A stretch of DNA of 24,274 bases, from IMG/VR virus record IMGVR_UViG_3300008120_000508, positions 1 to 24,274 of that record; one strand, given 5' to 3'. The notes under the pieces were generated by a model. That model did no database searches. It was not told the origin of the DNA and was given only the letters and a program-made list of their open reading frames with translations. Every line of letters begins with the position of its first letter. Position 1 is the first letter of the stretch. Of this stretch, positions 2,215 to 21,562 are shown one piece after another. The position numbers and the translations under genes are program-made. Source of the DNA: a virus.

Positions 2215-3984
2215 ATGGAATCAAGAATAGAACAATTAAAAGAGTATGCGAGAATATTGAAAGACGCACCATATGCTCTCAAAACATATTTGCAGACATA
2301 TGACAATACTCAAAAAAAATATGTACCTCTTGAGTTATTCCCTGACCAAGTTCAGTTAATACAGGATTACGAAGATTATAACGAAAATATTACAAGAAAG
2401 TATCGTCAGGCGGGTGTATCGACAGTAACATCTGCATGGATTTCAAGAAGGTTACAATTAGCAAAACCCGAGAATCCTGAAAGAGTACTTGTAATTGCTA
2501 ACAAAAGAGATACTGCAATTGAAATGGCGAATAAGATTCGTCACTTTTTAGAACAGTGGCCTGATTGGTTAAATGTTGGGTTTTCTCCCGATAAAAACTC
2601 AGAAAGTAGATTTAGATTAAATAATGGATGTGAGGTAAAAGCCGTTGCGACATCTCCCGATGCACTTCGTGGTTATACCCCTACAATCCTTGTATTTGAC
2701 GAGGCTGCATATATTGAAGCCGGTGAGGACTTTTGGGCGGCATCTATGGCATCTCTTTCTACGGGTGGTAAAATCATTTTGATTTCCACACCGAATGGAT
2801 ATGACCCAATTTACTACGGTGTTTATGACCAAGCAATTCGTAAAATGAATGATTTCCACATTACGGATTTAAGATGGTTTAAGGACCCACGTTACACTAA
2901 AGATTTAAGATGGATAAAATGTAGTGATATTACTCATTACATGTTAAATCGTGAGCAATATGATGACAATGAGGTTGTCATGTATGAATTTGACATTGAA
3001 AAGTATAATGAATACTTAGATGAAGGTTATAAACCATTCTCATCATGGTTTGAATCCATGTCAAAGAAATTCAAATACGATAGAAGAAAAATTGCTCAGG
3101 AATTGGAGTGTGACTTCTTAGGTTCAGGTGACGGTGTAATTCCGGGTGACGTACAGGACAACATTACGAAAAATATGTTGCGTGAACCCAAAGAGAAATA
3201 CATGCAAGGTACCTTTTGGCAATGGAAAGAACCCATTGTGGGTCATAGATACATTATGGGTGTTGATGTTAGTAGAGGGGATAGTGAAGACTTTTCATCT
3301 ATTAACATTGTTGATTTTGACGAAAGAGAACAGGTTGTTGAATATATCGGTAAAATACCGCCAGATGATTTAGCATCAATCGCTTATAAATGGGGTGTTT
3401 TATATGAAGCATTTATTGTGATAGATATTACCGGTGGTATGGGAGTGGCCACATCAAGAAAACTACAAGAAATGAATTATAAAAACTTGTACATTGATGG
3501 TGTTAATACTAAGAATATTTGGGAATATAATTCTAAAGCAATGGATAAAATCCCCGGTATCAATTTCAACAATAAACGAACCCAAATAGTTGCCGCATTT
3601 GAAGAACAATTGAGGAAAGGTTTTGCGGTTAGGTCGGCAAGATTAATGAATGAATTAAACACATTTGTTTATATAAACGGAAGACCTGACCACATGAAAG
3701 GTGCCCATGACGACTCAATTATGAGTTTATCAATGGCATTATATGCCGGTGATATGTGTTTCAGTCAGTTACAAAAGAACGAGAACGCCAATAAAGCAAT
3801 GTTGGAATCATGGACGGTATCTGAACGAACATACGAAGCAAACAAGACATTTTATGCTTACGGTTCAACCATGGATTCTATCGGAGCCATGCAAATGAAT
3901 GGTGGAAATAACAACCATCCGTTGGGTTCACCCACTAAAGACCACTACAAAGAATACTCTTGGTTATTTAGTAGAAGGAAGTGA
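2215..3984 (+). CDS. 17: Terminase large subunit (gp17-like DNA packaging motor)
   Basis: This 589-aa protein is the ATPase-nuclease that pumps DNA into the prohead and cuts concatemers. The ATPase half shows an adenine-binding Q-type motif near residue 42 (FPDQVQL), a deviant Walker A at 62-70 (KYRQAGVST), a Walker B at 157-166 (TILVFDEAAY, D162/E163) and a coupling motif at 189-194 (LISTPN). The nuclease half has the RNase H-fold acidic residues D351 (MGVDVSRGD), D404 (VIDITGG) and D499/D500 (AHDDS). Length matches T4 gp17 (about 610 aa). The Walker A lacks the usual GK[ST] lysine and instead has lysine at its first position, as in lambda gpA. The start is the ATG 3 nt after TATTTATA; no Shine-Dalgarno is present. 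The portal follows directly. Confidence 0.96.
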   Translation: MESRIEQLKEYARILKDAPYALKTYLQTYDNTQKKYVPLELFPDQVQLIQDYEDYNENITRKYRQAGVSTVTSAWISRRLQLAKPENPERVLVIANKRDTAIEMANKIRHFLEQWPDWLNVGFSPDKNSESRFRLNNGCEVKAVATSPDALRGYTPTILVFDEAAYIEAGEDFWAASMASLSTGGKIILISTPNGYDPIYYGVYDQAIRKMNDFHITDLRWFKDPRYTKDLRWIKCSDITHYMLNREQYDDNEVVMYEFDIEKYNEYLDEGYKPFSSWFESMSKKFKYDRRKIAQELECDFLGSGDGVIPGDVQDNITKNMLREPKEKYMQGTFWQWKEPIVGHRYIMGVDVSRGDSEDFSSINIVDFDEREQVVEYIGKIPPDDLASIAYKWGVLYEAFIVIDITGGMGVATSRKLQEMNYKNLYIDGVNTKNIWEYNSKAMDKIPGINFNNKRTQIVAAFEEQLRKGFAVRSARLMNELNTFVYINGRPDHMKGAHDDSIMSLSMALYAGDMCFSQLQKNENANKAMLESWTVSERTYEANKTFYAYGSTMDSIGAMQMNGGNNNHPLGSPTKDHYKEYSWLFSRRK

Positions 3985-4041: not shown

Positions 4042-5853
4042 ATGGCAACAGATAATAAAACAGTATTTCAGAGGTTAACCAAGATGTTTGGGTTTCCGGG
4101 TACAGCAAAACCTGAGGAGACACCGTCATTTAATTTTTCCAAAGATGAGATACTAAAAACCAGTAGTAGAGAGGACTATGAAAGAGCAATGTTACAAGCT
4201 CAACAGAGCCAATACATTGCAGATAAGTGGACCAAACTTGAACAATCTCTTTACAACCAATCGGTATATTATGAACCAAATAGATTAGCAGCATATTACG
4301 ATTATGAATCAATGGAGTTTACTCCTGAAATATCAGCAGCATTAGATATCTACGCGGAAGAATCCACTACATTATCAGAAAAGGGTGACATCCTTACAAT
4401 CTTCTCTGAATCCACAAGAGTAAAATCAATACTTGAGGATTTGTTTATTAATAGATTAGATTTAAATACTAACCTACAAATGTGGGCGAGAGGTGTATGT
4501 AAGTACGGTGATGATTTTGTTTATTTGAAAATCGACCCCGAGACCGGTATTGTTGGTTGTCAGCAATTACCCAATATTGAGATTGAAAGAATTGAGGGTA
4601 GAGAATCTAAATCACCAAATCAAAGAGATGCAAAAGTTCCAACAAGGGAATTAAGGTTCCAATGGAAAAACAAGGAATTAGAATTCCAAGCATGGGAAAT
4701 TGCTCACTTTAGATTATTGGGTGATGATAGAAAACTTCCATATGGCACATCCATGTTGGATAAGATTAGAAGAATTTGGAAACAGTTGTTACTTGCAGAA
4801 GATGCTATGTTGATTTATAGAACAACAAGAGCACCTGAAAGACGTGTATTCAAAGTATTCGTTGGTAATATGGACGATAAAGATATTGAAGCATATGTAC
4901 AACGTGTTGCCAATAAATTTAAAAGAGACCAAGTTGTTGACCCAAGAAACGGTCAGGTGGATATGAGATATAATCAAATGGCAGTTGACCAAGATTATTT
5001 CATACCTATTCGTGACCCGGCACAAACCAACCCGATTGAAACTTTAGCGGGAGCACAAAACTTAGGTGAGATTGCCGATATCGAATACATTCAAAAGAAA
5101 ATGTTAGCTGCACTTCGTATCCCTAAAGCTTTCTTGGGATTTGAAGAAGTTGTTGGTGATGGTAAACAATTGGCTTTAATGGATATTCGTTTCGCAAGAA
5201 CGATTAACAGAATCCAAAAATCATTAATTCAAGAGTTAAATAAAATTGCCCTAATTCACCTATACCTTTTAGGTATGGAAGATGAGTTGGATAATTTCTC
5301 TCTTTCATTAACAAACCCATCCGCACAATCTGATTTATTAAAGATTGAACAGTGGAAAGAAAAAATTGAATTGTATAAGAACGCAACTTCGGACCAATCT
5401 CAAGTAGGTATCTTACCTGTATCTCACACATGGGCTAAGAAGAATATTCTTGGTATGAGTGATAGTGAGGTTCTTCTTGATTTACAACAACAACGTATTG
5501 AAAGAGCGATGGGATTTGAGTTGACGAATACCCAAAACGTTATTAAACGTTCAGGTGTGTTTGATGATGTAGATGCCAAATACGGTGTACCTGAGGGTGA
5601 GAGACAAGAAGGTGGAGAAGCACCGGCAGGTGGTGAAATGGGTGGCGGAGCCGACATGGGTGGAGGAGCATCTCCTGAACCTGCGGGTGGTGGAGCTGAA
5701 TCAGCACCTTTAAGTGAATCAACAAAAAAACGTAATATTCTAAGTATGTTAGGTGAAGATACCAACATTAATGACCTTTTTGATGTCAATAAAGCACAAC
5801 AGAATATTTATGAAATAGAAAATAAATTAAAAGATATACTAAACGAACAATAA
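4042..5853 (+). CDS. 20: Portal vertex protein (gp20-like)
   Basis: This 603-aa protein forms the dodecameric ring through which DNA enters and leaves the capsid and on which the prohead initiates. Features typical of T4-type portals are the N-terminal region with the DYESMEFTPEISAALDIYA block, the KIRRIWKQLLLAEDAMLIYRT stretch (about residues 238-258) and the LRIPKAFLGFEE segment (about 358-370). Length is somewhat above T4 gp20 (524 aa). The extra is mostly a Gly/Ala/Glu-rich low-complexity linker near the C-terminus (about 520-560, GGEMGGGADMGGG) followed by a helical tail. The next gene begins 1 nt after its stop. Its position between terminase and protease matches T4 except that tail sheath and tube genes are absent from between gp17 and gp20. 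Confidence 0.95.
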   Translation: MATDNKTVFQRLTKMFGFPGTAKPEETPSFNFSKDEILKTSSREDYERAMLQAQQSQYIADKWTKLEQSLYNQSVYYEPNRLAAYYDYESMEFTPEISAALDIYAEESTTLSEKGDILTIFSESTRVKSILEDLFINRLDLNTNLQMWARGVCKYGDDFVYLKIDPETGIVGCQQLPNIEIERIEGRESKSPNQRDAKVPTRELRFQWKNKELEFQAWEIAHFRLLGDDRKLPYGTSMLDKIRRIWKQLLLAEDAMLIYRTTRAPERRVFKVFVGNMDDKDIEAYVQRVANKFKRDQVVDPRNGQVDMRYNQMAVDQDYFIPIRDPAQTNPIETLAGAQNLGEIADIEYIQKKMLAALRIPKAFLGFEEVVGDGKQLALMDIRFARTINRIQKSLIQELNKIALIHLYLLGMEDELDNFSLSLTNPSAQSDLLKIEQWKEKIELYKNATSDQSQVGILPVSHTWAKKNILGMSDSEVLLDLQQQRIERAMGFELTNTQNVIKRSGVFDDVDAKYGVPEGERQEGGEAPAGGEMGGGADMGGGASPEPAGGGAESAPLSESTKKRNILSMLGEDTNINDLFDVNKAQQNIYEIENKLKDILNEQ

Positions 5854-5854
5854 A

Positions 5855-6592
5855 ATGTCAAATTTTGGAGATGTAAAAACAAAATTGTTAGTTAAACTAA
5901 CGGAATCTTACACATCAGATAATAAGTCGGGTGTGAAGGATTTATTAAAACAAATTAAATCAAATAAGAATTTGGTTGAGATGTATTTGTTTTATGAAGA
6001 TATTGAAAATAAACATATCCCAAGCGTTGAAACCGCTAAGTTGTTCGTTGAACAAATCGAAACACTTTTAATTCAAAAGTCAAAACTTTTGGGTGAATCA
6101 TTATCTAATTTAAGTGGAATTCTAAAAGACGTTAATACGGATAAAAACGAAATCTATGAGTGTTTAGATATTCTATCTGAGGATGTAACATTATTGAATG
6201 TGGAGAAGAAAGTTGTTGCGAAGGAAAAGTTATTAAAGAATTTGACTTCACCTAAGCAAACACAAGTTTCTGAATCTACTGTTCATACCGATAATCAATC
6301 GTTGTTAAATGCAGTATTGGTAAATAACTTCAATACTAAGTTTACTGATTTTATGAATGAAGAACAAAAAGAATCATTCAAGAAGATTGTGACAATGAAA
6401 GACGATGAGTTATCTACTGAGATGTCATCATTGAAAGAATCGATGACACAAAAATTTGATAAATTGATTTCAGAAGAATCTGATTCTACGTTAATCGATA
6501 AATTGAGTCAAGCAAAGAAAGAAGTAACCGAATCTACGGTTAGTAAATTTAATTACTACAGATTGGTTGAACTTAGTAAAAGTTTAGATTAA
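5855..6592 (+). CDS. Unknown protein in prohead-core position between portal and protease
   Basis: The 245-aa frame starts at an ATG 1 nt after the portal stop and shares 4 nt with the oppositely oriented rpsU stop (6589-6592). It is predicted to be almost entirely helical, Lys/Glu/Ser-rich, with Leu spacing compatible with coiled coils (for example residues 70-125) and no catalytic motif. In T4 the small prohead-core genes 67 and 68 occupy this slot between genes 20 and 21. A capsid-core or assembly role is therefore reasonable, but the sequence is much longer than gp67 (80 aa) and I see no direct similarity. Strong coupling to the portal gene supports a late, virion-assembly function. Confidence 0.75.
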   Translation: MSNFGDVKTKLLVKLTESYTSDNKSGVKDLLKQIKSNKNLVEMYLFYEDIENKHIPSVETAKLFVEQIETLLIQKSKLLGESLSNLSGILKDVNTDKNEIYECLDILSEDVTLLNVEKKVVAKEKLLKNLTSPKQTQVSESTVHTDNQSLLNAVLVNNFNTKFTDFMNEEQKESFKKIVTMKDDELSTEMSSLKESMTQKFDKLISEESDSTLIDKLSQAKKEVTESTVSKFNYYRLVELSKSLD

Positions 6593-6780
6593 TCCTTAGG
6601 ATTATTCAATCTCTCTTTGTAAATAGCATTAAGTTTCTCTTGTCTTTTGAGAACTGACGGTTTAACAAACTCCTGTCTTTTTCTCAACTGTTCAGTTTGT
6701 TTAGTTCTGTGAACCTTGTTTTTGTACTTTTTTAGTGCAATTTCAAGGTTTCTTTCTTTTGTTACGTCTACGATAATCAT
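6589..6780 (-). CDS. rpsU: Ribosomal protein bS21, phage-encoded
   Basis: This 63-aa basic protein has the hallmarks of bS21: the MIIVDVTKERNLEIALKKYK start (bS21 begins with a short strand then the E.xExALKRFK helix), a second helix rich in Arg/Lys/Glu (QTEQLRKRQEFVKPSVLKR), and a basic tail. Length matches bacterial bS21 (about 64-71 aa). bS21 sits on the small subunit near the 3' end of 16S rRNA and affects start-site selection. The gene is the only - strand gene in the left half and converges on the preceding + gene with a 4-nt stop overlap. Its upstream region has no Shine-Dalgarno and is very AT-rich; a TATATTTT stretch close to the ATG could be a weak host-type -7 box. Such genes are known from phage genomes recovered from the environment. 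Confidence 0.9.
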   Translation of the reverse strand: MIIVDVTKERNLEIALKKYKNKVHRTKQTEQLRKRQEFVKPSVLKRQEKLNAIYKERLNNPKD

Positions 6781-6809
6781 TTGTCTTTTTTAAAAATATA
6801 ATTAAAATA

Positions 6810-6841
6810 TTTGGATTTTTTAAGTTTATTCTGTATATTTT
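6810..6841 (+). promoter_or_regulatory. Candidate host-type (Bacteroidota) promoter for the 141-aa gene
   Basis: TTTG at 6810-6813 is followed after 20 nt by TATATTTT at 6834-6841, which matches the Bacteroidota -7 consensus TAnnTTTG at all but the last base. It lies in the 98-nt divergent gap between rpsU and the gene starting at 6879. The mismatch and the AT-rich background make this tentative. Confidence 0.4.
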
Positions 6842-6878
6842 AAATACACCATAAATATATTAAGTATGAATAGCATTA

Positions 6879-7304
6879 ATGAAAAAGGGCAAGTTTATTA
6901 CAATTGGTGTCCATAACAACGTAAAGATTGGATATGGCACAGTTGACCACAAAAACTTAAAGACAATTTACATCCAATTAAATTCTTGGACTCAACCAAA
7001 TCACGATGATTGTGATTTTGACAGATTAATCTTGAAGACAAGAAGACACATCAAAAATAAAATTTACGACCTTAGGTGTGAGTATTTTAAACCACAATCA
7101 ATCGTTGACCTCGATATCAAAACAAGCGGTATTAAAACCAATAAGAGGTCGTTTATGGATTTGGAGATTACATTATACGTAGAAAAATTCTTCGACGTTA
7201 AATCAAAAGAGATAAAACAAATAGTATCCGAATTATCTGAAAATATTATAGATACCATTTTAACAGACGAAACTTTGTTTAATTTTTACGAAACAAAGAA
7301 TTAA
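6879..7304 (+). CDS. Unknown 141-aa protein in the head gene cluster
   Basis: I do not recognise this family. The protein mixes beta-rich segments (KFITIGVHNNVKIGYGTVDHK near the N-terminus; SFMDLEITLYVEKFF around 91-105) with a C-terminal amphipathic helix. No Cys or His cluster, membrane segment or catalytic signature is seen. The start chosen is the ATG at 6879; a nearer-upstream ATG at 6866 is in another frame and stops quickly. The gene sits between portal/core and protease genes and ends 34 nt before the protease ATG, with a TATTTATA in that gap. Its own upstream region carries a possible host-type promoter rather than TATTTATA, so it may be expressed earlier than its neighbours. Confidence 0.72.
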   Translation: MKKGKFITIGVHNNVKIGYGTVDHKNLKTIYIQLNSWTQPNHDDCDFDRLILKTRRHIKNKIYDLRCEYFKPQSIVDLDIKTSGIKTNKRSFMDLEITLYVEKFFDVKSKEIKQIVSELSENIIDTILTDETLFNFYETKN

Positions 7305-7338: not shown

Positions 7339-8022
7339 ATGAAGATACTTGGACCTAACGAGACCGGCAAGGGTATTCTAATCGAATACGATGCGGGTCA
7401 TATATCTCCACAGGAAAATCAAAGGATTATAACTGAGATGAAAGATACAGACTTCTCTCAGGATATAGTCCTTTATGCCGTTTTACAGAAATATGATACC
7501 CCCAATAAAAACGGTCGTATCTATCCCGAAACAATTCTCAAAAGAGAAAACGAAAAATATCAGAACCTTATTAAAAAAGGTGGAGCTCTAAATGAGCTTA
7601 ATCACCCATCATCTTCTCTTATCGATTTAGATAGGGTTTCACATTCTATTGTTGAGACATGGTGGGATGGTAAAATGTTAATGGGTAAAATTAAATTATT
7701 TACATCACCCGGTTGGAAGAAAATGGGTATTGTAAGTACTAAGGGTGACCAAGCAGCAATGTTATTAATGAACGGAGCAACATTAGGTATCTCATCAAGA
7801 GGTGTTGGTTCATTAAAAAATATCAAAGGACAAAACATTGTACAAGAAGATTTTGAGTTGGTATGTTTTGACTTGGTGTCCTCACCATCTACGCCGGGGG
7901 CGTATGTATTCAAGGATTTAGGTGAAAGAGACAATTACGCTGAATCGATTCAAGAAAGACCAGAATCGATTGATAAAATGAAAAATCTAATGTCGAAATT
8001 GGATAGTTTTTTATCCAAATAA
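7339..8022 (+). CDS. 21: Prohead core protease (gp21-like, S77/U9-type serine protease)
   Basis: This 227-aa protein matches the T4 gp21 protease that digests the scaffold and trims capsid proteins during maturation. Visible motifs are NGRIYP at 58-63, the catalytic histidine context GGALNELNHP (H89) and the serine context ATLGISSRGVGS (S152 or S153). They are followed by the beta strand FELVCFDLVSSPSTPGAYV that closes the fold. Length is close to T4 gp21 (212 aa). T4 gp21 uses His85 and Ser140, so order and spacing agree. It is followed by the scaffold and capsid genes in the standard order. The C-terminal tail (KMKNLMSKLDSFLSK) resembles the last residues of the scaffold protein next door. 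Confidence 0.93.
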   Translation: MKILGPNETGKGILIEYDAGHISPQENQRIITEMKDTDFSQDIVLYAVLQKYDTPNKNGRIYPETILKRENEKYQNLIKKGGALNELNHPSSSLIDLDRVSHSIVETWWDGKMLMGKIKLFTSPGWKKMGIVSTKGDQAAMLLMNGATLGISSRGVGSLKNIKGQNIVQEDFELVCFDLVSSPSTPGAYVFKDLGERDNYAESIQERPESIDKMKNLMSKLDSFLSK

Positions 8023-8103: not shown

Positions 8104-9297
8104 ATGAGCGAAAAATCAATTTTAGAACAAGCATTACTTCAGGTACAGACACTTGAAGAGGCAGTAAAAGCAAACGCAAAGGGTATACTTGCATCTACCA
8201 TGAAGCAAGAACTAAATGATTTGCTAAAAGAATCATTGGAAGAAGAGGAAGAGGTTGTTGCAGAACAACCCGATTCTGAAGAAGAGACTCAAGACGATGT
8301 ACCAGCCGAAGCTGGGGATGAGGAAGATGGTCTCGATAACGATGAAATGGGTGATGAGGAATCATCTGACGATGAGCTATCTAAAGACATCGATTCATTA
8401 GATTCAGAAGATGAAATGGGTTCAGAAATGGACGACATGGATTCAGAAGGAATGGATGATGAAGATGTTGTTGACATGACAGGTGCCGATGAAGAAGAAG
8501 TTTTAAAAGTATTCAAGGCAATGAGTGCAGAAGATGGTATTATCGTTAAGAAAGATGAAAACCACATCGAACTTGAAGATGGTGATGATGAGTACATCAT
8601 TAAGTTAGACGAAGAAGAATCAACTGAAGAACCTATGGATGAAACCATGGACATGCCAATGGAAGAAGAGGAAGAAACCTCTGAAGATTGGAACGAGGGT
8701 GAAGAAGTTGTTTACGAAATCGAACTTGATGAAGAAGAATCAGAAGAAGGTTCAGAAGACGAAAAAGAAATGTCTGAAGAAACTTTTGACGAACCTCACG
8801 AAGAAGAAATGGGTGAAGCCGCAAGAACTAAGTGGAATATCCATGGTGACAAGGGTGAAGCTGAAAGAGCAGGTATCAAGGGTAAAAAAGTATTCGCAGC
8901 AGGAGCAATCAACGAAGAAGTTGAGAACTTGAAAAAACAAAACGCTGAGTACAAAAAAGCACTTGTATTGTTCAAAGAAAAGCTTAACGAAGTTGCTGTG
9001 TTTAATGCAAACTTAGCTTACGCTACTCGTTTGTTCACCGAACATTCTACCACAAAACAAGAAAAACTCAACATCTTAAAGAGATTTGATTCAATCTCAA
9101 CCTTGAAGGAATCAAAAAATCTTTATTCAACAATTAAAACTGAATTAGATACTAAAAAACCAATTTCTGAATCAGTAGTTGATAAGATTACTTCGGCACC
9201 AAGTACTTCATCTTCAACTGAAGTTCTTTCAGAGTCAAAAGCTTATGAAAATCCTCAGTTTAAAAGAATGAAAGATTTGATGACAAAAATAAAATAA
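8104..9297 (+). CDS. 22: Prohead core scaffolding protein (gp22-like)
   Basis: The 397-aa protein sits between protease and major capsid protein exactly where T4 gene 22 lies, and has the expected character: almost wholly helical, highly charged and with no enzyme motif. Residues about 40-240 are extremely acidic, dominated by Glu/Asp with Ser and Met. The C-terminal third returns to a mixed-charge coiled-coil-like sequence (EEVENLKKQNAEYKKALVLF at about 276-295), then a Ser-rich segment and a final helix. It contains many [LI]xE sites of the kind cut by T4 gp21. T4 gp22 is 269 aa, so this one is longer, mainly because of the acidic block. Function as the inner core on which the capsid assembles is inferred from position and composition. 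Confidence 0.87.
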   Translation: MSEKSILEQALLQVQTLEEAVKANAKGILASTMKQELNDLLKESLEEEEEVVAEQPDSEEETQDDVPAEAGDEEDGLDNDEMGDEESSDDELSKDIDSLDSEDEMGSEMDDMDSEGMDDEDVVDMTGADEEEVLKVFKAMSAEDGIIVKKDENHIELEDGDDEYIIKLDEEESTEEPMDETMDMPMEEEEETSEDWNEGEEVVYEIELDEEESEEGSEDEKEMSEETFDEPHEEEMGEAARTKWNIHGDKGEAERAGIKGKKVFAAGAINEEVENLKKQNAEYKKALVLFKEKLNEVAVFNANLAYATRLFTEHSTTKQEKLNILKRFDSISTLKESKNLYSTIKTELDTKKPISESVVDKITSAPSTSSSTEVLSESKAYENPQFKRMKDLMTKIK

Positions 9298-9330: not shown

Positions 9331-11055
9331 ATGGGAGCATTATTAGAATCAGGTATGGTTGGTAACATCGGTCTTAAGCACCTTCGTGTTATCAAAGAAG
9401 ATACCATCAAAAAATGGGATGACTTAGGATTCCTAGAAGGTCTTGACGGCCATCAAAAAGATAACATCGCACAGTTGTATGAAAACCAAGCGTCTTACTT
9501 AATCAACGAAGCAGCAGTTTCTGATGCTAGTGGTTCATTCGAGACCGTAGTTTTCCCTATCATCCGTCGTGTTTTCTCTAAATTGTTAGCAAACGACATC
9601 GTATCGGTACAAGCTATGAACTTACCAATTGGTAAATTGTTCTACTTTATCCCTAAAATCCAAGATAGAACCTCAGGTGGTCGTCATAACCAACCTTACG
9701 GTTTCCCTTCTGGACAAACTGACCCAAATTCTGGTTACACAGGTTCAAACTTGTATGACAGATTCTATGAGGAAGATGACGCAGCAACTTCAGGTCTTTT
9801 CGATTACTCAAAAGGTGCGGTTACTGCAGTAGCAGCAGCACCATCTGCATTCGTTACATTCAGCAATGGTACTCCATCTGAAAGTACTGCAGCATTGAGT
9901 GGTTCTGTATCAAGTGCAATCGTTGTTCTTAGTGGTTTCGCAACTGCAGGACAAGGTAAAATGTTAGGTGCTAATGGTAACATCATGGATACTGAAGAAT
10001 TCTTAGCTTCTTTATCTGTTACTATCACTGGTAACACTACCGCAAACAACGGTGTTAAAAACTTCAACGTTGTAACTCAGAAATATGGTAAGGGTATCGT
10101 TGAGTACGGTCAAAAGAGCGGTACTACAATGAACAAATTCCAAGATATCTGTGACGAAGAAGGTAAAATCTACTTGAACGTCGATTTCGAAATTTACGAC
10201 CCGGCTTCAGGTTTCTCAGCAGCAGATTTCACTAACGACTTAGCTCTTGCTAATGTTGTAGTATCTTATAACACTTACGACACTCTTGAATTCGAAGAAG
10301 AAATCGGTGAAGTATCTTTCGACCTTCAGTCAGTAACAGTTTCTGTAACTGAAAGAAAGTTAAGAGCTAGCTGGTCTCCTGAATTGGCTCAAGACGTTTC
10401 TGCTTTCCACAACATCGACGCTGAAGCTGAATTAACAGCTTTATTGTCTGAGCAAGTTGCAGCAGAAATCGACCGTGAAATCCTTCGTGACATCCGTAAA
10501 GGTGCCGCTTGGAGAACTAAGTGGGATTACAACGAATGGAAATATGGTGCAGTTAGTGGTACTCCATTCATGGGTTACACTCAAAAAGATTGGAACCAAA
10601 CTTTGGTTACCAAAATTAACCAAATCTCTGCTCAAATCCACAAGACAACTCTTCGTGGTGGAGCTAACTGGGTTGTAGTTTCTTCTGAAGTTTCTGCAGT
10701 ATTCGATGACTTGGAGTACTTCCACGTTTCAAACGCAGGTCCTGAAGCTGATACTTACAACATGGGTATCGAGAAAATCGGTTCATTAGCTGGTCGTTAC
10801 CAAGTTTACCGTGACCCTTACTTACCAGCAGGTAAAGTAATCATCGGTCACAAAGGTAAATCTTTGTTAGACGCAGGTTACATCTACGCACCGTATGTAC
10901 CTCTACAGTTGACTCCGACTATGTACAATCCGTTCAACTTTACCCCAATTAAGGGTATCATGACCCGTTACGCTAAGAAAATGGTTAACAACCGTTACTA
11001 TGGTGTAATCGACGTACATGGATTGGCTACATTCAGTCTTGACACTTTAAGATAA
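9331..11055 (+). CDS. 23: Major capsid protein (gp23-like)
   Basis: This 574-aa protein is the main shell subunit. The N-terminal part has the T4 gp23 signature: WDDLGFLEGLDGHQKDNIAQ leading to LYENQASYLINEAAV, then VVFPIIRRVFSKLLANDIVSVQAM, which corresponds to the strongly conserved FPIIRRVFP...VQPM block. The conserved VSVTERKLRASWSPELAQD and EAELTALLSEQVAAEIDREI segments follow at about 339-385. The C-terminus carries the YAPYVPLQLTPTMYNPFNF block. Length is close to T4 gp23 (521 aa). A probable maturation cleavage site lies at E60/A61 (LINE then AAVSD). Codons are visibly more C-ending and regular (CGT, GGT, AAC, GAC) than in neighbours, consistent with very high expression. A strong terminator follows. 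Confidence 0.97.
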   Translation: MGALLESGMVGNIGLKHLRVIKEDTIKKWDDLGFLEGLDGHQKDNIAQLYENQASYLINEAAVSDASGSFETVVFPIIRRVFSKLLANDIVSVQAMNLPIGKLFYFIPKIQDRTSGGRHNQPYGFPSGQTDPNSGYTGSNLYDRFYEEDDAATSGLFDYSKGAVTAVAAAPSAFVTFSNGTPSESTAALSGSVSSAIVVLSGFATAGQGKMLGANGNIMDTEEFLASLSVTITGNTTANNGVKNFNVVTQKYGKGIVEYGQKSGTTMNKFQDICDEEGKIYLNVDFEIYDPASGFSAADFTNDLALANVVVSYNTYDTLEFEEEIGEVSFDLQSVTVSVTERKLRASWSPELAQDVSAFHNIDAEAELTALLSEQVAAEIDREILRDIRKGAAWRTKWDYNEWKYGAVSGTPFMGYTQKDWNQTLVTKINQISAQIHKTTLRGGANWVVVSSEVSAVFDDLEYFHVSNAGPEADTYNMGIEKIGSLAGRYQVYRDPYLPAGKVIIGHKGKSLLDAGYIYAPYVPLQLTPTMYNPFNFTPIKGIMTRYAKKMVNNRYYGVIDVHGLATFSLDTLR

Positions 11056-13625: not shown

Positions 13626-13633
13626 TATAAATA
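13626..13633 (-). promoter_or_regulatory. TATTTATA octamer (on - strand) before the 154-aa gene
   Basis: Read on the - strand this is an exact TATTTATA ending 4 nt before the ATG at 13619-13621. It lies wholly in the 15-nt gap between two genes. The orientation is the same relative to its gene as at the + strand sites. Confidence 0.5.
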
Positions 13634-19018: not shown

Positions 19019-19717
19019 TTAATTTATGAATCCCAACATTATACCTTCGTAGAGTCTTTTGTATTTTCTCATAGAAATCCTTATTTCTTTGGTTGATAAG
19101 GATGTCATTTCACGTAATGATAAGAGAATCAAGTTTTTATTAAACTTGTTTCCATCACCAATCTGAAATATTTTTTCAAAATTCCCAAAGATTTCAAGGA
19201 GAGCGTAACCTAATTTTTGTTCATTTTCGGATAACTCTTCAGATTCCATGAATTCCTCCATTTCTATGGTGAATTTTATCACAACATCTCGATAATCGAT
19301 GTTAGCTTCGTCTATGGTATATGAATGTTCGGGACTCTCCTCCAAAGATGAAGAAATGTCATCATATGACACACTTCTATTCATTTCTTTAGTATCCTTT
19401 TGGATTGCACCCATTAAATAATTCTTACAAATGGTACCAAAATAGGAGTATGCCTTATGATTTTTCGTGTGGTCGAATTTGTTAATTTTGGTAATTAAAA
19501 ACGACATGGTATCCGCATGGATATCCACGAATTCAAAATCTTTTCTATAAAGTTTGTAACGTCGAATGATTGATTCGACCATTATTGTGAGAGGTTCTCT
19601 TAAATATTCATTGAATATCTTGTTCTTTTCCGTTTCGGATTCCGATTGTAAGTATCTTACCACCGCTTGTTCTTGGTCCTCCCCAAAATATATTTTTTGG
19701 GTACGTTTACGGGGCAT
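19019..19717 (-). CDS. 55: Late-transcription RNA polymerase sigma factor (gp55-like)
   Basis: This 232-aa protein resembles the gp55 group of divergent sigma factors that redirect host RNA polymerase to T4 late promoters. The typical core is present: an N-terminal basic leader with IYFGEDQEQAVVRYL, the region 1.2/2.1-like EYLREPLTIMVESIIRRYKLY at about 38-57, DIHADTMSFLITKINKFD at about 65-82, and the region 2-like KAYSYFGTICKNYLMGAIQKD at 88-108. It then becomes acidic. It is longer than T4 gp55 (185 aa). The ATG lies 1 nt after the stop of the glycosyltransferase gene. Its position immediately before the virion module, with a TATTTATA behind its stop, suits a late regulator. A general bacterial sigma is unlikely because no region 4 is seen. 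Confidence 0.85.
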   Translation of the reverse strand: MPRKRTQKIYFGEDQEQAVVRYLQSESETEKNKIFNEYLREPLTIMVESIIRRYKLYRKDFEFVDIHADTMSFLITKINKFDHTKNHKAYSYFGTICKNYLMGAIQKDTKEMNRSVSYDDISSSLEESPEHSYTIDEANIDYRDVVIKFTIEMEEFMESEELSENEQKLGYALLEIFGNFEKIFQIGDGNKFNKNLILLSLREMTSLSTKEIRISMRKYKRLYEGIMLGFIN

Positions 19718-19718
19718 C

Positions 19719-20498
19719 TTAACTTTCTACATAGTTTATTTCTCGTTTATTTTTAAAGAAAAACTCTTTTTTTGCGGTATCTAACCAAAACTTAACCTCA
19801 TTCTCAGACATTCTCATTGAATCGTCATTTTTGTATGACCAAAAGAGTGAATTTTCTCTGAAATTGACGTGTTGATACCCAATTTTTGGAACCGAAATAA
19901 CAAGTACGTTATTATGAGTAAGTCTTAATAGAAACTCATAACCAAAGGTCAACTTAATGTTTTCTTTTAATTTACCTTGTTCTTTAATCACCGCCGTTCT
20001 ATATAAACCACCACTAATTTGGAAGTTTTGGTAATCTAAAAGTGCTTCGTTATCCAAAATACCTTGTTTTTCGGTAAACCCATACGCCCAAGGTGATTCA
20101 TTTGTAAAACTTAAAAATTTACCCTCAACATTAATGTCTTTTACAATCGTTAAAAATACATCCGCCGTTGGGTTCTCCTTTACATAGGTATTCATCGACT
20201 TCAACCAAGATGGTTTATACTCGTCGTCAACTTCTAAAATAGAAAACCATTCAGTATCACAATTTTCAATACCAAGATTTACCTGACTGCAGAAGTCCGA
20301 TGAACCATCGTTGGTTAACACTTTAGTTTCCAACTTATCTGAAACAAGTTGAATATTTGATATAACGTCTTTTGGACCTACAATTGTTAATTTAACGTCA
20401 TTGTAAAATTCCTCAACAGATTTTACTGCGTTTTCAAACATTAATTTATAATCTTCATCCCATTTATGGATGGGTAATATTACGGTTACATTTTTCAT
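19719..20498 (-). CDS. Family 2-like (GT-A) glycosyltransferase
   Basis: The 259-aa protein begins with the GT-A nucleotide-binding strand VTVILPIHKWDEDY and has the acidic metal/nucleotide motif ILEVDDEYKPSWL (D91, D92, E93), equivalent to the DxD of GT2 enzymes. The downstream block ISGGLYRTAVIKEQGKLKENIKLTFGYEFLLRL is the acceptor-side helix region typical of GT2. It would transfer a sugar from a nucleotide sugar to an unknown acceptor: phage DNA, a virion protein or host surface glycan. It overlaps the upstream glycosyltransferase stop (ATGA), so the two are coupled. Unusually for this genome, a consensus AGGAGG lies 7 nt before its ATG. Confidence 0.87.
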   Translation of the reverse strand: MKNVTVILPIHKWDEDYKLMFENAVKSVEEFYNDVKLTIVGPKDVISNIQLVSDKLETKVLTNDGSSDFCSQVNLGIENCDTEWFSILEVDDEYKPSWLKSMNTYVKENPTADVFLTIVKDINVEGKFLSFTNESPWAYGFTEKQGILDNEALLDYQNFQISGGLYRTAVIKEQGKLKENIKLTFGYEFLLRLTHNNVLVISVPKIGYQHVNFRENSLFWSYKNDDSMRMSENEVKFWLDTAKKEFFFKNKREINYVES

Positions 20499-21562
20499 GC
20501 TGTTACCTCCTCTTTATTTAATTTTTCTAATGCCTTTTCGATACTCAAAACTCTACTGGTTTTAAAAGATTCGAAAATTACGTTTATATTTTCTTTGGTT
20601 ATATCCGAATCATACGGTAAAAGGGTGTCTCTCATTTTTTGAGTTACCTCATCAGTTAGTTCAACACCTTCGAGCCACGCCATTACAAATTTTCCAAGAA
20701 TCTCTGTAATTTTTGTCTCGTCATATGTCCACATACCGTTCTCACTCAACCAATCCGGTTCGTTTTTAGGTATTTTACCAATCACAGGAACACCACATTT
20801 CATTGATTCGAGAGGGAACGTACCAAAAGTTGAATCGTCATCAATCCATACCGAAACCATACACTCTTTTAATGACTCTGAAAATTCATCATATGTCATT
20901 TGATTCATATCTCTAAAATTAATCCATCTTAAATGTGGATGTTTTAGATAAAATTCTGATATGATTTTTTTATTGATTGACCTATCTCTACATGAAATTG
21001 CGATTGTAGGTTTTGCCGTGTTTTCAGATGGTTTAAAGTTCTCTCCAATCATTGGTGGAACAATGTAAACAATCGATTCTTTAAAGTAATCCTCGATATA
21101 ATTCTTGCTTGATTCGGTAGTGGTAATCACTTTATCAAAACCATAATCTGACCATCTACTTCCGATAGGTAGTGTTTCAAACATGTATTCTTTTTGTTGA
21201 ATCAACATGACTTTAACACATTTAATATTTGCCAAATTCTCTAATACGTTTGAATAGTACTCAGGAACGACAATTACGTCTTCAATTTTAATCTCAACTC
21301 TATCATCCTTGATGGTAACCACTTCAAGGGAATCGTACTTATCTCCTAACCACCCCTGAACACCAGTGTAAGTTTTATCCTCAACTAAAATCTTTACGTT
21401 TTTACCGTTTTCTTTTAGTGTTAACGCCATGTCGTAAATGTGTTTAACTGACGCTCTAGCGTTATTTCTTGTGTCATAAGTTAAGAAATAAATTGTGTAT
21501 TCATTTGAGGTCAATTTACTCAATGAACTTTCTAATTTTTCTATGTTTTCTTGTTTATTCAT
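20495..21562 (-). CDS. GT-B fold glycosyltransferase (family 1/4-like)
   Basis: This 355-aa protein has two Rossmann-like halves. The C-terminal half carries the donor-binding signature of GT4-type enzymes, SVWIDDDSTFGTFPLESMKCGVPVIG (about 237-262), with the conserved E252 in the ESM..GVPV context. An internal strand TIAISCRDRS (about 186-195) begins that half. The N-terminal acceptor half shows YTIYFLTYDTRNNARASVKHIYDMALTL. It likely works in series with the GT2-like enzyme encoded immediately downstream. The start ATG overlaps the previous gene by 8 nt. Acceptor unknown: candidates are modified bases in phage DNA, glycosylated virion protein, or host envelope sugar. Confidence 0.85.
   Translation of the reverse strand: MNKQENIEKLESSLSKLTSNEYTIYFLTYDTRNNARASVKHIYDMALTLKENGKNVKILVEDKTYTGVQGWLGDKYDSLEVVTIKDDRVEIKIEDVIVVPEYYSNVLENLANIKCVKVMLIQQKEYMFETLPIGSRWSDYGFDKVITTTESSKNYIEDYFKESIVYIVPPMIGENFKPSENTAKPTIAISCRDRSINKKIISEFYLKHPHLRWINFRDMNQMTYDEFSESLKECMVSVWIDDDSTFGTFPLESMKCGVPVIGKIPKNEPDWLSENGMWTYDETKITEILGKFVMAWLEGVELTDEVTQKMRDTLLPYDSDITKENINVIFESFKTSRVLSIEKALEKLNKEEVTA
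20506..20511 (-). promoter_or_regulatory. Consensus Shine-Dalgarno (AGGAGG) before the GT2-like gene
   Basis: On the - strand AGGAGG occupies 20511-20506 with a 7-nt spacer to the ATG at 20498. It is the only full Shine-Dalgarno I found at a start codon in this window. It also encodes the Glu-Glu-Val near the C-terminus of the upstream enzyme, so coincidence is possible. Confidence 0.5.

Follow-up and report, generated by a model that had tools for sequence, protein, structure and literature searches.

What could a ribosomal protein do for a virus that keeps its gene reversed within a block of head genes? We addressed this question for the bS21 gene of a 24,274-base IMG/VR virus record, a genome fragment (hereafter, the window), whose source is a large virus, a T4-like myovirus of Bacteroidota bacteria. 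The arrangement itself was published in 2022 (Chen et al., PMC9723584), and the window is a member of the group described there. The present analysis adds the promoter-like elements of the bS21 gene and its lack of a Shine-Dalgarno (SD) sequence of the Flavobacterium rpsU type. The relevant features of the window were as follows.

2215..3984 (+), terminase large subunit, TerL (PF03237)
4042..5853 (+), portal protein, gp20-like (PF07230, E 7.2e-76)
5855..6592 (+), CONV, the convergent neighbour, 245 aa, no assigned function; at its 3' end it shares 4 nt with bS21
6589..6780 (-), phage bS21, 63 aa (PF01165, 39.7 bits; gap-free alignment to 7jil chain z; Tyr54 kept)
6794..6800 (-), TATATTT, 20 nt from the bS21 ATG and probably its sigma-A-type -7 box
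6810..6841 (+), TTTG-N20-TATATTTT, likely host-type promoter of DIV
6846..6854 (+), ACACCATAA block near the expected DIV transcript start, found in 51/53 distinct upstream regions
6879..7304 (+), DIV, the divergent neighbour, 141 aa, no assigned function (AlphaFold2 pLDDT 93)
7339..8022 (+), prohead protease (PF03420, E 4.2e-23)
8104..9297 (+), acidic protein in scaffold position, between the protease and the major capsid protein
9331..11055 (+), major capsid protein, MCP, gp23-like (PF07068, E 6.8e-74)
19019..19717 (-), putative late sigma factor, gp55-like (phrog_234, E 4.6e-4, a weak match)

The initial annotation had described a phage-encoded bS21 gene standing reversed between portal and protease. 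Both points proved right: the gene lay in a T4-like head block of a virus record, and one gene with no assigned function intervened on each side. The protein in scaffold position had no family match among the Pfam and PHROG profiles.

The bS21 reading frame started with ATG and included its stop codon within 6589-6780. Positions 2-55 of the 55 in the PF01165 profile matched residues 4-57 (E 3.9e-10), that is, the full profile length at a score above the cut-off of 27 bits. Thus, the proposed bS21 identity over the whole length was upheld by the profile search that had been named as the test able to refute it. The score against NCBIfam TIGR00030 was 25.9 bits, just below the cut-off of 28.95, and we therefore regarded the phage protein as a divergent member of the family and did not claim the strict equivalog label. 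It also matched phrog_21469, "ribosomal protein S21" (E 7.4e-5), and its residues 1-59 could be aligned without gaps to bS21 of Flavobacterium johnsoniae (PDB 7jil chain z, E 4.1e-9). Since the reading frame was kept in dozens of distinct contigs, a chance origin was excluded.

The position of the gene was conserved as well. In 92 of 109 viral loci (some contigs being counted twice) the portal gene and a reversed bS21 gene stood at the same place; the portal loci lacking bS21 stopped within 0.82 kb of the portal, with a single exception. The tail-to-tail overlap of bS21 and CONV measured 4-9 nt in 88/89 loci, and the larger related virus records that were checked held a single bS21 each. Distances between bS21 sequences correlated with those of the portal, DIV and CONV (Mantel r 0.65, 0.80 and 0.83; p 0.001), as expected under joint descent. 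The exceptional locus, L069 (L069:3351-3448), had both neighbours and the DIV promoter-like element but no bS21, and a clean loss was likely. A distant bS21 (43% identical) was found at L029:7977-8252. It stood on the same strand as its surroundings, protease on one side and MCP on the other, and its leader was SD-like (-9.1 kcal/mol). It was possibly acquired independently by another phage group, and on account of its position, strand and distant sequence it was left out of the group counts.

In a tree of bS21 sequences, limited to 64 columns and with hosts from Bacteroidota only, viral and cellular proteins formed the two sides of one branch (support 99/90). The phylogeny suggested earlier as a route to the host consequently did not indicate a single one, and host assignment from this tree was ruled out because the viral sequences formed a side of their own. 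The best matches to the phage protein in 395 Bacteroidia genomes reached 55% identity, with a Fluviicola genome at the top, and the three cellular loci found were titled Fluviicola, Flavobacteriales and unassigned bacterium. K20, K40 and R46 were common to all viral and cellular sequences. Tyr54, which in bS21 stacks on the anti-SD region, was present in 57/59 viral and 100/104 cellular proteins, and also in the window, which thus had the aromatic residue at position 54 that marks a Bacteroidota-type, anti-SD-hiding bS21. Its retention made unmasking of the anti-SD a less likely effect of the phage protein. The fixed differences between virus and host were concentrated at residues 5-30: position 23 was V in 58/59 viral and 0/104 cellular sequences (F23V), positions 27 and 28 were K and Q in 55/59 and 56/59 viral ones, and further mostly viral changes occurred at positions 5, 7-10 and 14.

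The leader of the window gene, ending in TTATATTTTTAAAAAAGACAA-ATG, had no SD, as the initial annotation had noted. Pairing energies were computed against 13 nt of one fixed 16S tail, real tails varying slightly. None of the 57 distinct phage leaders of the group paired below -7 kcal/mol, the one exception being L029 outside it, and likewise 0/57 were stronger than -13 kcal/mol, the extended-SD value for rpsU autoregulation. The Flavobacterium-like rpsU genes reached -18.4 to -18.6 kcal/mol, which indicated that the measure worked. However, the contrast drawn earlier with flavobacterial rpsU was valid for the Flavobacterium type and not for bacteria generally: only 7/70 host rpsU genes in a first sample and 9/30 in a second passed -7 kcal/mol, and the closest cellular relatives, of the Fluviicola type, had no SD (-1.1 kcal/mol). 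The lack was therefore not peculiar to phages. SD-like sites were also rarer in phage genes than in a mock window (3 vs 11 and 2 vs 10). A strong SD-like sequence, GAGGAGGT (-13.7 kcal/mol), was noted at 20499-20520 (-), 5' of the gene at 19719-20498 (-). We rejected it as a functional SD for that gene, as two homologues lacked it and it lay inside upstream coding sequence, where a coding coincidence looks likely.

The head genes and the bS21 gene differed in their promoter-like elements. The motif TATTTATA occurred in one orientation 5' of 50/332 genes in two large related records (about 2 expected), preceding TerL in 48/56 cases, the portal in 51/65, the protease in 26/44 and the scaffold-position gene in 22/40. 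In the window it was found at 2204, 4010, 4031, 7318 and 8077 (+) and at 13626 and 19002 (-), just 5' of several structural genes. Since the window encoded a weakly matching late sigma factor, TATTTATA may be a late promoter; a literature search for the motif gave no match. The core of the T4 late promoter is TATAAATA, of which TATTTATA is the reverse complement. The motif stood before DIV in 0/50 cases and, exactly, before bS21 in only 5/55, and its role as the bS21 promoter was rejected on this ground. With one mismatch allowed, it preceded bS21 in 51/58 leaders against 20.5 in shuffles, mostly coinciding with the TATATTT box, so that a degenerate late motif at bS21 was possible.

The -7 box of the primary sigma factor in Bacteroidota is TAnnTTTG (PMC6847099, PMC9723704). 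TATATTT was present 18-27 nt before the ATG in 48/58 related bS21 leaders against 5.1 in shuffles, although these motif counts all came from related sequences, whose kinship inflates them and makes shuffles overstate significance. The exact TAnnTTTG was found in 22/58 leaders (1.2 in shuffles); in the window the eighth base was T and not the consensus G. On the other strand, TTTG-N15..22-TAnnTTT preceded DIV in 41/53 relatives (3.9 in shuffles) and was kept in L069. Taken together, the two elements looked like a pair of divergent host-type promoters in the 98-bp gap. A conserved TATGGTGTA block was considered as a bS21 leader element and rejected: it was retained in L069 without bS21 and hence belonged to DIV. 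DIV itself was well conserved beside bS21 and gave a confident AlphaFold2 model. Its function could not be assigned by fold search, which returned one structural relative, a viral protein of no assigned function in a Myoviridae record, and nothing in the PDB at E <= 0.001.

On the sequence side, these promoter differences within one gene block give grounds for bS21 being controlled separately. The earlier suggestion that the gene follows its own schedule was thus supported by TATTTATA at the head genes as against a host-type -7 box at bS21, and was qualified by published RNA data in which bS21 was highly transcribed late together with the structural genes, though not as one operon (PMC9723584). 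Promoters were not mentioned in the main text of that paper.

We propose, with a probability of about 50%, that the phage protein replaces host bS21 and that ribosomes stay filled with bS21 and blind to SD, outside the rpsU feedback loop. The phage protein would take the place of host bS21 on the 30S platform, and with the C-terminal anchor and Tyr54 kept, the anti-SD would stay hidden and SD-less mRNAs would still be favoured. The phage's own genes would be among the mRNAs favoured in this way. Having a host-type promoter and no SD, the phage gene would be expressed independently of the ribosomes without bS21 on which Flavobacterium rpsU depends, and could keep the ribosome pool filled once host synthesis fails. 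Ribosome entry, the consequences for translation and mRNA choice, and the timing are inferred; the proposal as a whole draws on the gap-free homology, the retained Tyr54, K20, K40 and R46, the weak leaders as compared with Flavobacterium-like rpsU, and the phage-wide SD depletion. Published work points the same way: according to McNutt et al. 2023 (PMC9976891), bS21-lacking ribosomes initiate more slowly on SD-less mRNAs, and Mizuno et al. 2019 (PMC6375957) showed that E. coli 70S ribosomes take up the bS21 of a pelagiphage. In the latter study, which is the one biochemical test, the activity in vitro was about 5%; this argues against substitution, albeit in a foreign host. Moreover, many Bacteroidota in our samples had no strong rpsU SD, so that an escape from feedback would concern only some of the hosts. 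If the phage gene does escape it, lower translation from the host rpsU leader is expected, with SD-less mRNAs unaffected.

A stronger version, which we consider unlikely, is that the phage turns the rpsU feedback loop against its host. Here the SD-free, separately promoted phage bS21 would fill ribosomes and remove the bS21-lacking ones, the SD-bearing host rpsU would lose the ribosomes that it needs for translation, host bS21 synthesis would fall, and the phage copy would take over without any protease. Such a takeover could occur only in hosts whose rpsU has an extended SD.

The altered N-terminal half suggested more than plain replacement, and Chen et al. 2022 had proposed a specialised ribosome in which this half, lying over the mRNA path, prefers phage mRNAs to those of the host. 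The fixed differences at residues 5-30 (V23, K27, Q28) and the clean separation of viral from cellular sequences by one split fit their model. We hold it to be possible but doubtful, since no phage-specific leader element was found and phage and host mRNAs were both SD-less. The low activity of E. coli ribosomes carrying pelagiphage bS21 could instead mean that the phage protein acts as a poison of host ribosomes, so that the host translates less overall. This is very unlikely: the measurement was made in a foreign host, and bS21 is highly transcribed when head protein is needed in bulk (PMC9723584), so that poisoning would hurt the phage itself. The location in the head block and the tail-to-tail overlap with a block gene would agree with a role away from ribosomes: the protein might be a small, basic component of the head or of packaging, or it might be carried in the virion, as Chen et al. 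also proposed (PMC9723584). The conserved bS21 residues, including Tyr54, and a promoter-like element unlike that of the head genes make such a role quite improbable. Finally, the loss in L069 with both neighbours kept might suggest a passenger gene of no present benefit; we give this hardly any credence, because bS21 was kept in 92 loci at the same position and with its key residues despite a median distance of 0.40. Thus, substitution for host bS21 remained our preferred reading, and it can be set against the closest known systems.

The cultured Flavobacterium phage immuto 2-6A (Immutovirus, NC_055915) shared the T4-like head order and had TATTTATA before TerL and portal. It differed in that all of its head block ran on one strand and no bS21 was annotated there, a bS21 search giving no match, and its portal was only 36.5% identical. 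The phage collection searched contained no cultured member of the bS21-phage group. The pelagiphage HTVC008M is likewise a myovirus encoding bS21, but its protein is of alphaproteobacterial origin (PMC6375957) and its entry into E. coli ribosomes was demonstrated. In F. johnsoniae, bS21 was alike over 59 gap-free residues and in Tyr54 (PMC9976891; PDB 7jil), whereas its rpsU carries an extended SD and relies on bS21-lacking ribosomes for translation; the phage gene had no SD and an altered N-terminal half. McNutt et al. 2023 speculated about phages, and in the passages cited here the SD status of phage bS21 genes was not stated (PMC9976891).

The nearest system was that of the freshwater Bacteroidetes phages of Chen et al. 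2022, for which substitution of bS21 into host ribosomes had already been proposed (PMC9723584). Those phages and the window were alike in the reverse-strand bS21 among TerL, portal, protease and MCP, with one gene of no assigned function on each side, in the PhoH and dUTPase genes, in the aromatic residue 54, and in a viral bS21 standing apart from the bacterial proteins and nearest to Bacteroidetes. Their outgroups lacked the co-expressed neighbour gene reported there, which may correspond to DIV, while L069 kept DIV without bS21. There was no difference of kind, genome size (about 300 kb in that group) being left aside for a 24-kb fragment, and the N-terminal divergence of viral bS21 agreed with that which they reported.
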